Below are positions 22,677 to 37,636 of a DNA stretch of 38,739 nucleotides, one piece after another. The notes beneath the pieces are model-generated. The model searched no databases. It was given only the letters and a program-made list of their open reading frames with translations, and was not told the DNA's origin. Each line of letters begins with the position of its first letter. Position 1 is the first letter of the stretch. The stretch is from an uncultured Thiotrichaceae bacterium (lineage in GTDB: Bacteria > Pseudomonadota > Gammaproteobacteria > Thiotrichales > Thiotrichaceae). Both the position numbers and the translations under genes were made by a program. The stretch lies in assembly GCA_902727985.1 (NCBI GenBank), contig CACVAY010000032.1, positions 1 to 38,739 on the forward strand. Reading direction: 5' to 3'.

Positions 22677-24494
22677 CTATTGAACTTTACGAATTCGATA
22701 ATGCTCAGGATTAGCACCCATCTCATTTGCGGTTAACCCTCCCTTCCGTTCAATGAGAGCTGCCACACCACGTAAACCCCGCTTGTTCGCCACATCCAAC
22801 GGCGTCTCACGCGCATTACTCACAACGTTCAGGCTCGCCCCTTTATCAATAAGCAAACGAGCAATTTTCGCTCTACGCCAATTCAGAGCATCTAGCAAAG
22901 GTGTAGAACCAAAACGTCCACGTGTATTGGGATTAGCACCAGCATTGAGCAATTGTCGAGTAATAGGCAAGTTTTGTCCTAAGACAGCAAAATGCAAAGG
23001 CGTTTGTTGAGAGATATCTGCCCAATCAAGTTTTGCACCACGCTGAAGGATTTTACCCACTAACACGTCATTTTTGTGTCCAACCGCAATATGTAGAACA
23101 GTTTGTTTTTGCTGGTTACGGATATTCACATCTGCACCTGCATTGAGCAGCAAGTCCATCAAGTTCAAATCAGCCTTACGTGTTGCAATATGCAATGCCG
23201 TATCCTTATGATCATTCGAGGTATTCACTTTCGCACCAGAACGCAGTAATAAAGACACCAACTCAGGCTTAACCTGCTCCACCGCCTGAATCAAAGGCGT
23301 TCTGCCATAAGTACCAGCACGATTAATATCCGCTCCTGCACCAATCAACAAGGTCGTAAATTGTAGATCTTCTTTAGCCATGGCCAATTGCAGATTCGAA
23401 TCGCCACGCTTTTTTGGTTCATCAGAAGCAGCCCCATGATCTAGGAACAACCTCACAAAATCAGGCTTTTCATAACGAATGGCACGATGTAGTAAGGACT
23501 CAGCGCCATGCGTTTTATTGGGATCAGCCCCCAGTTGTAGCATCACTCTCGCCATTGCCACATTATCGCTATTTAGCACCGTAAACAAAGGCGACATACC
23601 TTTCTCAGGGTTAAGATTAGCCCCAGCACTTACCAGCATTTGCATGGCTTGCGAATCCTCTTTACGAATCACTTTGTCAATTAATGCTGAATAGCTAAAA
23701 TCTTTGCGGTGTGAGGCATGATGTAATAGTTTCTGTAATAGCTGATATTGCGTTGGATCACTGCGCATGACGGTATCAAATAAGCCGGCATAATTATGCA
23801 GTCCATGCACATCGCTCCCCTGATCAATAATCAGATTAGCAATATCCCACTTTCCCAGCTGCAAAGCTTTAGACAAAATCACGTTGCCCCGATAGTGAAT
23901 AGACCTTGGTTCCAAGGCTAATAACTTCTGAACTGCTAGTACATCATTCTCACGAGCAGCCATTTCCATCACAAAGCCAACCGCTGTGATCTTTGCACGT
24001 TGCTCATACGGTAGATTTAAGTAGCTATCAGGGTATAAACCAGCAAAATGCGTATTATTGATGATATTCGCAAAATACCCAGCCGCAGGGTTTGCGGCTT
24101 GTGACAACAGCCATTTCACCGTCTTGGTGTCGTAACGTGCCAAAGCTATATCAAACGCGGTACCACTCGCAAATTGATAACGATTTTTACCGGCTAAAAA
24201 AGGGAATGTTTTATCAGCCCGAACACGGGTCTTTATCACGACATGAGGAGTAGAAGAGCGATAATTGATATCAGCCCCCTGCTTCAGCAGACCTTTCGCA
24301 GTCGCTAAACCTCCACGCGAAACCGCTAGTAATAACTGATCATCGATAGAAAAAGCTGAATCCGGACATTCTCCCTCATCGTCAGCATTTAACGAACCGC
24401 ACAACGCTGCTGCACTCAAATCATCGTTTGGACTCATCGCCATTAGTAACAACAAGACGATAAAAGACAATATTGAAATATATCTTTTAATCAT
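22677..24494 (-). CDS. Exported ankyrin-repeat protein
   Basis: A 605-aa protein with a hydrophobic signal sequence (about 5-28, ending near AAAL) followed by a cysteine pair region (LCGSLNADDEGECP). Ankyrin repeats fill most of the rest: weak copies at about 45-300 and clear ones at about 300-590 (for example TPLIQAVEQVKPELVSLLL, TALHIATRKADLNLMDLLL, TVLHIAVGHKNDVLVGKIL). No catalytic domain is seen. Periplasmic or surface location is inferred from the signal. It stands alone between the mnmA terminus and a divergent helical-protein gene. It could bind partner proteins in the envelope, but no function is assigned. Confidence 0.85.
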   Translation of the reverse strand: MIKRYISILSFIVLLLLMAMSPNDDLSAAALCGSLNADDEGECPDSAFSIDDQLLLAVSRGGLATAKGLLKQGADINYRSSTPHVVIKTRVRADKTFPFLAGKNRYQFASGTAFDIALARYDTKTVKWLLSQAANPAAGYFANIINNTHFAGLYPDSYLNLPYEQRAKITAVGFVMEMAARENDVLAVQKLLALEPRSIHYRGNVILSKALQLGKWDIANLIIDQGSDVHGLHNYAGLFDTVMRSDPTQYQLLQKLLHHASHRKDFSYSALIDKVIRKEDSQAMQMLVSAGANLNPEKGMSPLFTVLNSDNVAMARVMLQLGADPNKTHGAESLLHRAIRYEKPDFVRLFLDHGAASDEPKKRGDSNLQLAMAKEDLQFTTLLIGAGADINRAGTYGRTPLIQAVEQVKPELVSLLLRSGAKVNTSNDHKDTALHIATRKADLNLMDLLLNAGADVNIRNQQKQTVLHIAVGHKNDVLVGKILQRGAKLDWADISQQTPLHFAVLGQNLPITRQLLNAGANPNTRGRFGSTPLLDALNWRRAKIARLLIDKGASLNVVSNARETPLDVANKRGLRGVAALIERKGGLTANEMGANPEHYRIRKVQ

Positions 24495-32941: not shown

Positions 32942-33724
32942 ATGTATGATCTTATCGACAACCCGTTAGCGAGTAGAACAACGTCTCAAAGCTCTTCTGA
33001 ACTAGCACCTTCTTCAGACACTTTGGTGCTACCGACGATGCTAACCATTCCATCTGGACGCTTTATCATGGGCGGTCTTGATGAGCGTGATGGTGTAGAA
33101 GGTGGATGCGTATTGGCAGAACGCCCTGCACACCCTGTTTACATTACTTCCTTTGAGATGAGCAAATACCCCATCACCTTTGATGAATATGATGCTTTTT
33201 GTTTGGACACCCGCCGTCCAATGCCTGCAGATATGGGCTGGGGACGCGGTAATCGCCCCGTCATTAATATCAGCTGGCAAGATGCACAAGACTATTGCAA
33301 ATGGTTATGCTCAGTAAATGGCTGGGGCTATCGCCTGCCCTCTGAAGCAGAATGGGAATACACTGCGCGTTCCCAAACAAATACCGCTTATTTTTGGGGG
33401 ACGCTCACTGAACCTACTCATGCCAACCATCAACTTTATGTTGGAAAAACATCCCCCGTTGGTTCCTACCCCGCTAATCCCTTTGGTATTCATGATATGC
33501 AAGGTAATACATGGGAATGGGTACAAGATTGCTGGCATGCGAACTACCAGAACGCACCCTCTGATCATCAAGCTTGGGAGCACAATGGTAATTGTGAAGA
33601 ACGAGTTTTACGCGGGGGATCTTGGAACGACCGCCCGCGTTATTTGCGAGCGGCTTATCGTGTGAAAGATTACGCGACGACTAGACGTAACTTCTACGGC
33701 ATTCGTATAGCGCGCTCGCTATAA
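32942..33724 (+). CDS. FGE-sulfatase-fold (SUMF1-like) protein without catalytic cysteines
   Basis: A 260-aa protein with the formylglycine-generating-enzyme fold: IPSGRFIMGGLDE at about 37, HPVYITSFEMSKYPITFDEY at about 67-86, PVINISWQDAQDYCKWL, YRLPSEAEWEYTAR, NPFGIHDMQGNTWEWVQD and the C-terminal RVLRGGSWNDRPRYLRAAYR (221-240). True FGE has two active cysteines in the last block; here that block has none, so it is unlikely to make formylglycine. No signal peptide is evident. Related folds serve in EgtB, PvdO and other non-FGE roles. Its stop converges with the DUF4389 gene 3 bases away. Confidence 0.88.
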   Translation: MYDLIDNPLASRTTSQSSSELAPSSDTLVLPTMLTIPSGRFIMGGLDERDGVEGGCVLAERPAHPVYITSFEMSKYPITFDEYDAFCLDTRRPMPADMGWGRGNRPVINISWQDAQDYCKWLCSVNGWGYRLPSEAEWEYTARSQTNTAYFWGTLTEPTHANHQLYVGKTSPVGSYPANPFGIHDMQGNTWEWVQDCWHANYQNAPSDHQAWEHNGNCEERVLRGGSWNDRPRYLRAAYRVKDYATTRRNFYGIRIARSL

Positions 33725-34308: not shown

Positions 34309-35193
34309 CTATTGATTCAATTTTGGGAACCTTTTTTTGTAAGACCCCAATAATGCATCTTTAAACAGCCACCAGAGAACTCGAGGGTTTTTCCGGAGAT
34401 ATTTTAATGCATAGGGGAGACTGCCCATTCCATAGGGAATATACATTCTCACCGGAACTCGGTACTCTTTGGCCACGGCGAGGACAGCCTTGACTGGCAA
34501 ACCATATAGCAGTTCAAGTTCACAAGCAGTATCTGTGCACTTTAAGAGCTTGATAGACTCACGAATCAGAGTGGGGTCATGGGAAGCAAGCCGAACCAGT
34601 TTTGCACGTCCTGCCAAACATTCAACAATAGCCAGAAAACCAGCCCGTGGGTCACGTTCTGGGTCTTCAGGGTCATCCCATTGCCCCTTCACCACCCGAA
34701 CAGTAATTCCGAGCTCAGCGGCAAGATCCGCATCGGCCACGCTGCGTTTCCATCTGCCAGGCAGGGAATAGCCAATGTCGTCATAAGGTGGCTGTGTGTG
34801 CCTGGTTATCAGTTCCAAAGTGCGATCCGCGTCTGCAAGGCTGTGTGAATCAAGATGGATAGGTACTCTCAATTCTCGCGCTTTATTCACTATTTTTGCA
34901 TACAGATTTTCGTCAAAGTGCATAGGGGGCAATTTGACAGACAGATAGCCATTTCCGTTGCTGTTCTTAATCGCTTGCAATGCAGCTATATTGACATCCG
35001 CAATAGCAGCAGATGATTCACCAGTTTGATTCCAGTACCCAAGTGTACATGCGCAACCGCGAGCACTTAGATACTCAAAAGTATCTATTGCCTGATCTAA
35101 TGTCTCCCCTGCAATATAGCTCTGTCCACCGAGGTGTATGCCACGGTCAACAACGGGACGTAAAATTTTCTTTATGGGTTCGCTGATGGACAT
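34309..35193 (-). CDS. Proline dehydrogenase-fold flavoprotein, substrate uncertain
   Basis: A 294-aa TIM-barrel protein of the proline dehydrogenase family. Family blocks are visible: LSVKLPPMHF, VPIHLDSHSLADADRTLEL, VRVVKGQWDD (FAD-binding lysine strand), VRLASHDPTLIRE, LELLYGLPV and the C-terminal MYIPYGMGSLPYALKYL. In PutA the matching C-terminal helix has a YLVRR motif whose two arginines hold the proline carboxylate; here the place reads YALKY, so the arginine pair appears lost. There is no P5C dehydrogenase domain. It follows an acyltransferase by 2 bases in a polysaccharide-type operon, which suggests oxidation of something other than free proline. Confidence 0.82.
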   Translation of the reverse strand: MSISEPIKKILRPVVDRGIHLGGQSYIAGETLDQAIDTFEYLSARGCACTLGYWNQTGESSAAIADVNIAALQAIKNSNGNGYLSVKLPPMHFDENLYAKIVNKARELRVPIHLDSHSLADADRTLELITRHTQPPYDDIGYSLPGRWKRSVADADLAAELGITVRVVKGQWDDPEDPERDPRAGFLAIVECLAGRAKLVRLASHDPTLIRESIKLLKCTDTACELELLYGLPVKAVLAVAKEYRVPVRMYIPYGMGSLPYALKYLRKNPRVLWWLFKDALLGSYKKRFPKLNQ

Positions 35194-35195
35194 AA

Positions 35196-36290
35196 TTATT
35201 TCCTTTTAAATAGCTTCTGTTTGAGTAGATCCTGCTTTCTGGCCCAGATATATTTAAAGGCATTCCTAGTGAATAGAACCATACCGCGCGGGGTGTAAGG
35301 AAACACCAGCACTGTCTCGTTTTTCCGCGTCTTTTTGCTCCATCGATCTGTCCAGCCGGAAGCTACACCAAGAAATTCATAGGACTTGAGACCCTGAGTA
35401 GCAGCGTAGCGCAATGTCCATTCCATCAGCAACATACCTGGCGAACATTTAGAAAAGGCCTCATTATAGCCAACCTTGAGCAACCAGAAACAATCACTTT
35501 CTTGCAGTGCGATCTGCATTGCCACCGCAATACCATTGATCTTCATAAAACAGAGATGTAAAGTGCCATTTTTTGCAGCACGGATGGCATAAGATTCATA
35601 AAATGCCCTCATCCTGTCATCTTTCACTAATGCAGAGCCGCTTTCACCCTTCCAGCTTGCGGCTTCTACCTGTAACGCCTCTTGCCATAGCGGCATAAAT
35701 TCTTCAGACGTCGACGGTGAATGAATCTCGAATGAAACCTCCCCCTTTGTTGCTGCACGTCTCGCCGCTCGTCTAAGATCGCTGCGTAGCCTTGAAGACA
35801 AGTTTGCAACGGTTTGTTCCGCATCCCCCTTAATGTCTATATAGGGACAACCGTCGTTAGGTCGGATAAATACCAGACCTTTGCCATGGTAGGCTTTTTG
35901 GAGTGCTGAAATAACAGGGGAATCGGCTGGAATACGATGTAGTGATAGTGGCATCCGTAATTTTGCAAGCGCTTCTGCAAGAACTTGCAGCGAAGTGCTA
36001 TCACGATAACTAAAATCGCCCGGTTCACCATGACTTTCCCCGAGCTGTAACGCAGGATTGAAGTACCCGTCGGATTTAACAAGAGGAGCAAACGCTATGG
36101 GGTTATTGTTTTCCAAAGCAACGATAAGATACAAGTCTGTGTTGCCTAACAAGTGTTCAGCTGCGGACAACATCCAGTCACAATTCGATGTTGGTGCTTC
36201 CATATAACTATGCAGTTCTTTCCACTGCTTAGCCAAAAGTGTTATGTCGTGTGGTGTTTTGTAGATGTTGTGATTGTGCATGAGACTCAC
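35196..36290 (-). CDS. BioF2/FemAB-like GNAT acyltransferase
   Basis: A 364-aa protein with the Acetyltransf_6 (BioF2-like, CelD/FemAB-related) double-GNAT fold. The central block AASWKGESGSALVKDD and MRAFYESYAIRAAKNGTLHL (about 210-245) and the following LLMEWTLRYAATQGLKSYEF region are typical. Such enzymes acylate or aminoacylate sugars in exopolysaccharide clusters, or transfer amino acids to cell-wall precursors. It lies 53 bases after the flippase gene and 2 bases before the dehydrogenase gene. ATG at M4 is an alternative start. Acceptor and donor are unknown. Confidence 0.86.
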   Translation of the reverse strand: MSLMHNHNIYKTPHDITLLAKQWKELHSYMEAPTSNCDWMLSAAEHLLGNTDLYLIVALENNNPIAFAPLVKSDGYFNPALQLGESHGEPGDFSYRDSTSLQVLAEALAKLRMPLSLHRIPADSPVISALQKAYHGKGLVFIRPNDGCPYIDIKGDAEQTVANLSSRLRSDLRRAARRAATKGEVSFEIHSPSTSEEFMPLWQEALQVEAASWKGESGSALVKDDRMRAFYESYAIRAAKNGTLHLCFMKINGIAVAMQIALQESDCFWLLKVGYNEAFSKCSPGMLLMEWTLRYAATQGLKSYEFLGVASGWTDRWSKKTRKNETVLVFPYTPRGMVLFTRNAFKYIWARKQDLLKQKLFKRK

Positions 36291-36343
36291 TTAAATAAAA
36301 TAGGACTGGGTAATTGTTAATTTCATAACTTGAAAATCCGGGC

Positions 36344-37636
36344 TTATGCATGCGGGTGACTATCGTTCGAAGCAAGGTTCTTGAAGTGACGCCGGGTATC
36401 GTATTCAAAATAAATAAACATGATGATATTGATAATCATGCCAAAGAAGACCACTCCGAGAGTTGAATAGACCGCTCCCAAAAGACCGTACTTCGGGATT
36501 AAAAGCGCATTGAGCCCGATATTCATAATGCCTTTAACAATGGTTATCGCCGACATCTGCCATAGCAGCCCTCGGGCAATCCATTGAACACTCAGAATAT
36601 TGGTGAAAGTGACCGCAACTACCATAATGGAGAGATACTGAAAGAGTTCGATGGCAGGATAAAATTCTTCACCTGCTAACAAAATCAGCCACCATTTCGC
36701 ACTCCAGCCAGCGACTACGATTCCTACCAGAACAAGAGCAGTGGCCATCAATAATATCTTCTTCTGGTAGTTCCAGACGCCGTAAATACCACGACGGGTA
36801 ACCTCACCTTGTAGCACGGTTGCCGCAGCATAAGAGACAATAAGCATCATTTGCACCAACTGTGAAGCTAACTGGTAATAACCCGTCGCTTCGACTCCCA
36901 AATAGGCAGTGACCATGATGACATCCATAGACATCATCATGATTACACCAATGGTATTTAAATGAAGCTTTAGGCCGTCAATAACCAGTTTTCTCATTTC
37001 AGGGAAATCAACCCGAATGGTCGAACCAGCCTGTTTCACAAGAAATTTGAGGCCGCCAAATGCAATAGTCGATTGCCAAATAAATTTAGAAATCAACACC
37101 CCTGCCACACCCAATCCTGAGCCTACAACCAGAATAAGTTGCGCTATGGCGTTACTGGAGCTACCGATAATTTCGTATCGATTGAAGAGATGCAAGTGAT
37201 CCTCAATATTGAGTAAAGAACGATTGTATTCTTCCCAGAACCACACTGGCAGGATAAGAAAACCCAGCACCAACGCAAAGAGAGGAATATTATTGAGCAG
37301 ATTAGGCAAACCCCAATAGTTTCCGGCTATATAAATCAGGGTAATGATGAGCCAACTTACCAGCGTCATGACGATGACCAGAAAAATCATATTTCCCAAG
37401 GTTGTGCCAAGCCAGTTTTTGCCTGTTTTATGCGTGGCTTGGTAAATCACCGCCGTCCCCAGGCTTAATCCCGCAATATCCACAAACAGATTAACCCAGG
37501 TTGTTACTGAAGCAACGATTCCGCGCCCTTCTGCACCTAGCCAGCGCGCAGTAATAGATAAGGTAATAATCCCCAACAACATCGAATAAATATTAGCGCC
37601 ACTGGTTTGTAATATTTTTTTTATTAAATTGTACAT
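36344..37636 (-). CDS. Wzx-like polysaccharide flippase (MOP superfamily)
   Basis: A 430-aa protein with about 12 hydrophobic segments throughout and the family start IYSMLLGIITLSITARWLGA. It should move lipid-linked oligosaccharide units across the inner membrane for O-antigen, capsule or exopolysaccharide. First gene of a three-gene unit with the acyltransferase and the dehydrogenase-fold protein. No glycosyltransferase or polymerase is in the window; to the right lies degraded DNA, so the cluster may be a fragment or depend on genes elsewhere. Confidence 0.9.
   Translation of the reverse strand: MYNLIKKILQTSGANIYSMLLGIITLSITARWLGAEGRGIVASVTTWVNLFVDIAGLSLGTAVIYQATHKTGKNWLGTTLGNMIFLVIVMTLVSWLIITLIYIAGNYWGLPNLLNNIPLFALVLGFLILPVWFWEEYNRSLLNIEDHLHLFNRYEIIGSSSNAIAQLILVVGSGLGVAGVLISKFIWQSTIAFGGLKFLVKQAGSTIRVDFPEMRKLVIDGLKLHLNTIGVIMMMSMDVIMVTAYLGVEATGYYQLASQLVQMMLIVSYAAATVLQGEVTRRGIYGVWNYQKKILLMATALVLVGIVVAGWSAKWWLILLAGEEFYPAIELFQYLSIMVVAVTFTNILSVQWIARGLLWQMSAITIVKGIMNIGLNALLIPKYGLLGAVYSTLGVVFFGMIINIIMFIYFEYDTRRHFKNLASNDSHPHA

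Follow-up and report, generated by a model that had tools for sequence, protein, structure and literature searches.

A proline dehydrogenase (PRODH)-like protein encoded by an uncultured Thiotrichaceae bacterium (contig CACVAY010000032.1) has kept residues of the amine-oxidation machinery and lost those that bind and gate the substrate carboxylate, and its gene forms, with a transferase gene, a pair that recurs in a second bacterial family. In our judgment, there is about an even chance that the protein performs a flavin-dependent amine oxidation, coupled to the transferase, of a substrate without a free alpha-carboxylate. The predicted fold, the residue pattern, and the recurrence of the pair are the observed parts of this explanation. 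The window, i.e., the whole stretch of DNA that was analysed (38,739 nucleotides), holds the following features:

34309..35193, minus strand: PRODH-fold protein, 294 aa; retains the base and residues of the flavin shell, lacks the gate and the clamp for the proline carboxylate
35194..35195, minus strand: spacer of 2 bases between the transferase gene and the PRODH-like gene
35196..36290, minus strand: Acetyltransf_6 (PF13480) transferase, probably a FemX-like tandem GNAT (low-confidence model), 364 aa; conserved partner
36344..37636, minus strand: Wzx-like flippase (MOP/PF01943), 430 aa; probably the operon's first gene, outside the recurring unit

Locus layout and recurrence of the pair

The ORF coordinates agree with the initial annotation, which had the PRODH-like gene 2 bases from the transferase gene and behind a Wzx-like flippase gene; the latter lies upstream of the transferase gene, with a gap of 53 bases. 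Direct reading of the sequence placed the ribosome-binding site of the PRODH-like gene (AAGGAA type) within the final codons of its transferase neighbour, and the two genes are probably translationally coupled. The operon has no glycosyltransferase genes and none for glycan assembly or a tRNA-ligase-like step. It matches no defence system and bears no marks of horizontal transfer: its G+C and GC3 resemble those of the flanks, and no tRNA, Rfam, or plasmid-like DNA match lies beside it. A P5C/GSAL dehydrogenase gene is a common, if not universal, neighbour of PRODH genes; none adjoins the PRODH-like gene in the window or in the Woeseiaceae copy described below.

Elsewhere in the window, positions 32942-33724 (+) encode an FGE-sulfatase-domain protein, for which NCBIfam ranks PvdO (145 bits vs. 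a cut-off of 500) and EgtB highest, both below cut-off, and positions 22677-24494 (−) encode an ankyrin-repeat protein (605 aa) in a stretch otherwise largely housekeeping. At the window end, a run of 100 N (contig C32, 38740-38839) is preceded by a stretch that seems repeated beyond it; the sensor-kinase gene located there may, therefore, be misassembled.

A scan of 84,980 species with exact peptide patterns, which are insensitive to distant relatives, returned a single relative of the PRODH-like protein, 42% identical over its full length, in the Woeseiaceae MAG JAHEFF010000042 (L002). There, the PRODH-like gene overlaps the end of a transferase gene by 8 bases, in the same order and on the same strand, and this partner is 43% identical to the transferase of the window. 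Gene order, strand, and tight coupling agree between two bacterial families, so these two cases read most naturally as a functional pair, and the proposed link between the two genes is upheld. The trio of flippase, transferase, and PRODH, which had been put forward as a unit, did not hold: a neighbourhood survey rejected its recurrence for the genomes searched, the Woeseiaceae pair having no flippase and the congener flippases having no pair. The flippase scores 46.3 bits against its profile PF01943 (Polysacc_synt; cut-off 28.2) and has relatives (49-55% identity) in five of five congeners and on contig C73 of its own genome; these are mostly solitary, none stands beside a PRODH-transferase pair, and in two of the congeners the flippase gene is followed by one for a GINT1-like protein. 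Since these relatives lie elsewhere without the pair, the trio is local and the pair is the unit. Upstream of the Woeseiaceae pair are genes for a cyclopropane-fatty-acid synthase and a geranylgeranyl-reductase-like flavoprotein, and capsule-type genes (sugar-epimerase, glycosyltransferase, Wzi-type) lie about 11 kb off; no glycosyltransferase gene adjoins either pair.

The survey brought up two other loci. In one congener, an RraA-like protein, two ATP-grasp proteins, an Ldh_2 (sulfolactate-dehydrogenase-like) protein, the flippase relative, and a GINT1-like protein are encoded in a row on a single strand (L111:1005-8391), resembling an as yet uncharacterised cluster for a surface molecule. 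On contig C73, L110:3674-6106 encodes, close to the second copy of the flippase, a protein of 810 aa that combines RTX calcium-binding repeats with a haem peroxidase domain of animal type.

The PRODH-like family is rare. No third member at family-level score was found in whole genomes (1,765 counted, in samples that overlap and were partly spent on other queries). In profile searches, the window's own genome was the sole match among 369 genomes of its class and 398 of its phylum, and the L002 genome was the sole match among 296 order-level and 107 family-level genomes around it. None of the five congeners carries a member; only remote PRODHs were matched in plasmids and phages, and IMG/VR yielded no family member. 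A further set of 17/99 matches was made up of L002's own genome and 16 low-scoring ones (≤85 bits); eight of the latter were aligned in full, and these are ordinary PRODHs with the RR motif intact. In a tree with other PRODHs, the two members form a clade with 100/100 support on a stem of 4.06 changes per column; the family is a variant of the PRODH kind with two known members.

The IMG/VR search also showed that 54 viral contigs (L031-L084) encode PRODHs. Those that were checked keep the RR motif and the active-site residues and therefore look like ordinary PRODHs on viral contigs, perhaps auxiliary metabolic genes.

Fold and active site of the PRODH-like protein

By sequence, homology to PRODH is real but remote. 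The window protein barely passes Pfam Pro_dh (PF01619; 27.9 bits vs. a cut-off of 27), and its Woeseiaceae relative has no Pfam match at E 0.01; against the NCBIfam model for Thermus-type PRODH (NF045947; equivalog cut-off 500), they score 67.9 and 35 bits, respectively, and in a phmmer search the window protein matched Thermus thermophilus PRODH with an E-value of 8.8e-12. An AlphaFold2 model, built from an alignment of 28 PRODHs from viral contigs and the single Woeseiaceae relative, reached a pLDDT of 80.6 and a pTM of 0.80. Its leading PDB matches are all PRODH or PutA, with T. thermophilus PRODH (2g37) as the best (Z 26.1, rmsd 2.9 over 267 residues; Foldseek E-value 1.2e-13), so that the modelled protein is a (beta-alpha)8 PRODH barrel.

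In order to compare active sites, we mapped both members onto E. coli PutA through an alignment with canonical PRODHs; such alignments are at about 20% identity, with the C-terminal helix and the K329 strand being unambiguous. The initial annotation had pointed to a change from YLVRR to YALKY, and the helix alignment bears this out: YALKY occupies residues 261-265 of the window protein and aligns with Y552-R556 of PutA. The replacements extend well beyond this motif. In PutA numbering, both members retain K329, D370, R431, K434, G435, H487, L513, Y540, and Y552 (K329, L513, Y540, and Y552 being K87, L229, Y251, and Y261 in the window protein, with the same residues in the Woeseiaceae relative). 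The arginines R555/R556 are replaced by K264/Y265 in the window protein and by S262/N263 in the relative, and the E289-R555 gate by Q56/K264 and G54/S262, respectively. Both members also have G for D285, P for Q404, and W for Y437, while G288 reads N/D, E372 reads H/L, and E559 reads K/T (window/Woeseiaceae). Of the flavin-contact residues, R431, K434, G435, and H487 are kept, Q404 and E559 are lost, and T486 is changed to S.

The published roles of these residues give the pattern its meaning. Of the PutA residues, R555 and R556 hold the carboxylate of the substrate, K329 has been proposed as the base, and the proline ring is enclosed by Y540, Y552, and L513 (PMC10651016). In SmPutA, helix alpha8 supplies two arginines that pair with the carboxylate of the ligand (PMC11596857). 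Arg288-Glu65 of T. thermophilus PRODH, equivalent to R555-E289 of PutA, is the suggested active-site gate, closing over proline (PMC6017737), and R431 and E559 are named in FAD binding (PMC3718742). The losses, therefore, concentrate on carboxylate binding and gating; the retained residues are those for hydride transfer and some of the flavin shell. Flavin binding is itself uncertain, as E559 and Q404, which contact the flavin or are proposed to do so, are among the residues lost.

Chance does not explain these losses. Among 45 other PRODH rows, G288, E289, Q404, R556, and E559 are present in all 45 and R555 in 43, and R556, E559, E289, and Q404 are missing in both of our members. Divergent PRODH rows from Streptomyces, Metabacillus, and Paenibacillus, taken as a control, lack K329 and D370 and keep E289, R556, and E559; this opposite pattern argues against mere drift or decay in the two-member family. 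The claim of a substrate other than proline is probable, given that the carboxylate clamp is lost in both members.

Two other readings of the barrel have to be weighed here. It could be a diverged but genuine dehydrogenase of proline (or hydroxyproline or pipecolate) that holds the carboxylate through K264, K87, or R249. K329 and the ring-wall residues are indeed kept, K264 carries a positive charge and could still weakly hold a carboxylate, and the bacterium's own genome has no other Pro_dh match, so the gene could encode its sole PRODH. However, the charge is not conserved, the Woeseiaceae relative having S262/N263 in place of both arginines; the Glu-Arg gate is lost as well, neither copy adjoins a P5C/GSAL dehydrogenase gene, and the gene is absent from the five congeners. 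We consider this reading improbable. As for the genome, no canonical Pro_dh was found by a search that missed even the window gene; this result therefore speaks against an ordinary PRODH or PutA and leaves room for other divergent ones.

It is just as doubtful, in our estimation, that the PRODH-like protein has ceased to be an enzyme and supports the transferase as a structural or regulatory protein, its barrel no longer binding flavin. The changes at Q404, E559, and T486 in a conserved barrel would agree with this, as would the strict pairing and apparent translational coupling in both copies. Yet R431, K434, G435, H487, K329, D370, Y540, and Y552 are all kept in both members at an overall identity of only 42%; a dead barrel should lose these residues as readily as others.

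The transferase partner and the proposed reaction

The transferase belongs by sequence to Acetyltransf_6 (PF13480; 90.6 bits vs. a cut-off of 22) and stays below the cut-off for FemAB (PF02388; 12.4 bits vs. 24). At a pLDDT of 53.7, its model is poor, with a good alignment for the C-terminal domain only; FemX ranks first among the fold matches, with a small lead for this low-confidence model over acetyl-CoA GNATs (Z 13.5 vs. 11.7), and Sba18/Sbb17, ATE1, and MprF are at or near the top. The transferase is probably a tandem GNAT of FemX-like architecture, and the model suggests an aminoacyl-tRNA-type transfer. Weaker relatives (about 25-36% identity) occur in exopolysaccharide loci of rhizobia and one Gammaproteobacterium, and some adjoin carbamoyltransferase-like genes; the other transferase genes of the bacterium's own genome stand alone.

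These relatives bear on an acyl-CoA version of the module, in which the transferase would use acetyl- or fatty acyl-CoA and the PRODH-like enzyme would make or remove the amine that the transferase acylates, the acceptor being a surface glycan that the flippase would move. Besides the exopolysaccharide loci and the flippase directly upstream, it can draw on an Actinoplanes exopolysaccharide cluster where an FAD monooxygenase adjoins a BioF2-like acetyltransferase (PMC13390465), which may serve as a loose precedent for a transferase-flavoenzyme partnership. The flippase, however, is outside the recurring unit, and both pairs are without an adjoining glycosyltransferase gene; we regard this version as unlikely, if somewhat less so than the two readings above.

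The preferred explanation is a two-gene module of a PRODH-fold, flavin-dependent oxidoreductase and a probable tandem-GNAT transferase. With the retained machinery (the K329-equivalent lysine, the Y540/Y552/L513 walls, and the flavin contacts R431, K434, and H487), the oxidoreductase would take a hydride from the carbon adjoining a ring or secondary amine. The transferase would link an amino acid, or another acyl group, by the carboxyl to a glycan, amino sugar, or lipid, and the PRODH-like enzyme would oxidise the attached or acceptor amine before export. As both the arginine pair and the Glu-Arg gate are lost, the substrate carboxylate is most likely absent or masked. A transferase working with an activated carboxyl masks the carboxylate of its product, so a clampless PRODH-fold enzyme would fit such a product. 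Flavin binding, the type of reaction, the masked carboxylate, the order of steps, and the acceptor are parts that we infer. An amide-modified sugar, as suggested initially, would be compatible, and an amino acid carried on a glycan or lipid would fit as well. A more specific form is something of a long shot: a FemX-like transferase would first link an amino-acid residue by its carboxyl to a glycan or lipid of the cell surface, and the PRODH-fold flavoenzyme would then oxidise that residue (e.g., prolyl to pyrroline). If true, this would be an undescribed way of giving surface molecules cyclic imines or carbonyls. The surface-polymer role stands only indirectly, through the transferase relatives in exopolysaccharide loci or near carbamoyltransferase-like genes and through the capsule-type genes of the Woeseiaceae contig.

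PRODH serves catabolism, and its proline pocket is nearly invariant. A clade keeping the oxidation chemistry without carboxylate recognition, and tied to an aminoacyl- or acyltransferase, would show that the PRODH fold has been recruited for biosynthesis. Its substrate could be sought by simple flavin-reduction assays, and the automatic annotation "proline dehydrogenase" would probably be wrong for such genes.

Comparison with known systems

A literature search on PRODH with flippases, exopolysaccharide, or biosynthetic clusters retrieved nothing relevant. Like Wzx (MOP) flippases, the window flippase passes the PF01943 cut-off; unlike them, it sits in a three-gene operon without glycosyltransferases, and within the genus its nearest relatives mostly stand alone. 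The C-terminal GNAT domain of the transferase model resembles the aminoacyl-tRNA-dependent GNATs FemX, Sba18, and MprF (Z 13.5 to FemX, at low confidence), from which the transferase differs in having no significant sequence match to them and in its sequence family, Acetyltransf_6.

The PRODH-fold group on plasmids of Streptomyces, Metabacillus, and Paenibacillus (L121:8902-9867, on a plasmid of Streptomyces sp. RerS4; L122:5914-6876; L123:2914-3876) is, like ours, a branch of the PRODH family outside canonical proline catabolism. The RerS4 copy is surrounded by genes for a radical-SAM methyltransferase, a PPTase, and ovoA, which together look like a biosynthetic cluster. Unlike the window protein, this group loses K329 and D370 and keeps E289, R556, and E559.

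With monofunctional bacterial PRODH (2g37; PF01619; NF045947), the window protein shares the whole (beta-alpha)8 barrel, the N-terminal helix, and the C-terminal helix alpha8, together with the catalytic lysine and the equivalents of Y540/Y552/L513 and R431/K434/H487. It differs from these enzymes, to which it is about 20-22% identical, in having other residues in place of the carboxylate arginines, the gate Glu, E372, Q404, and E559.
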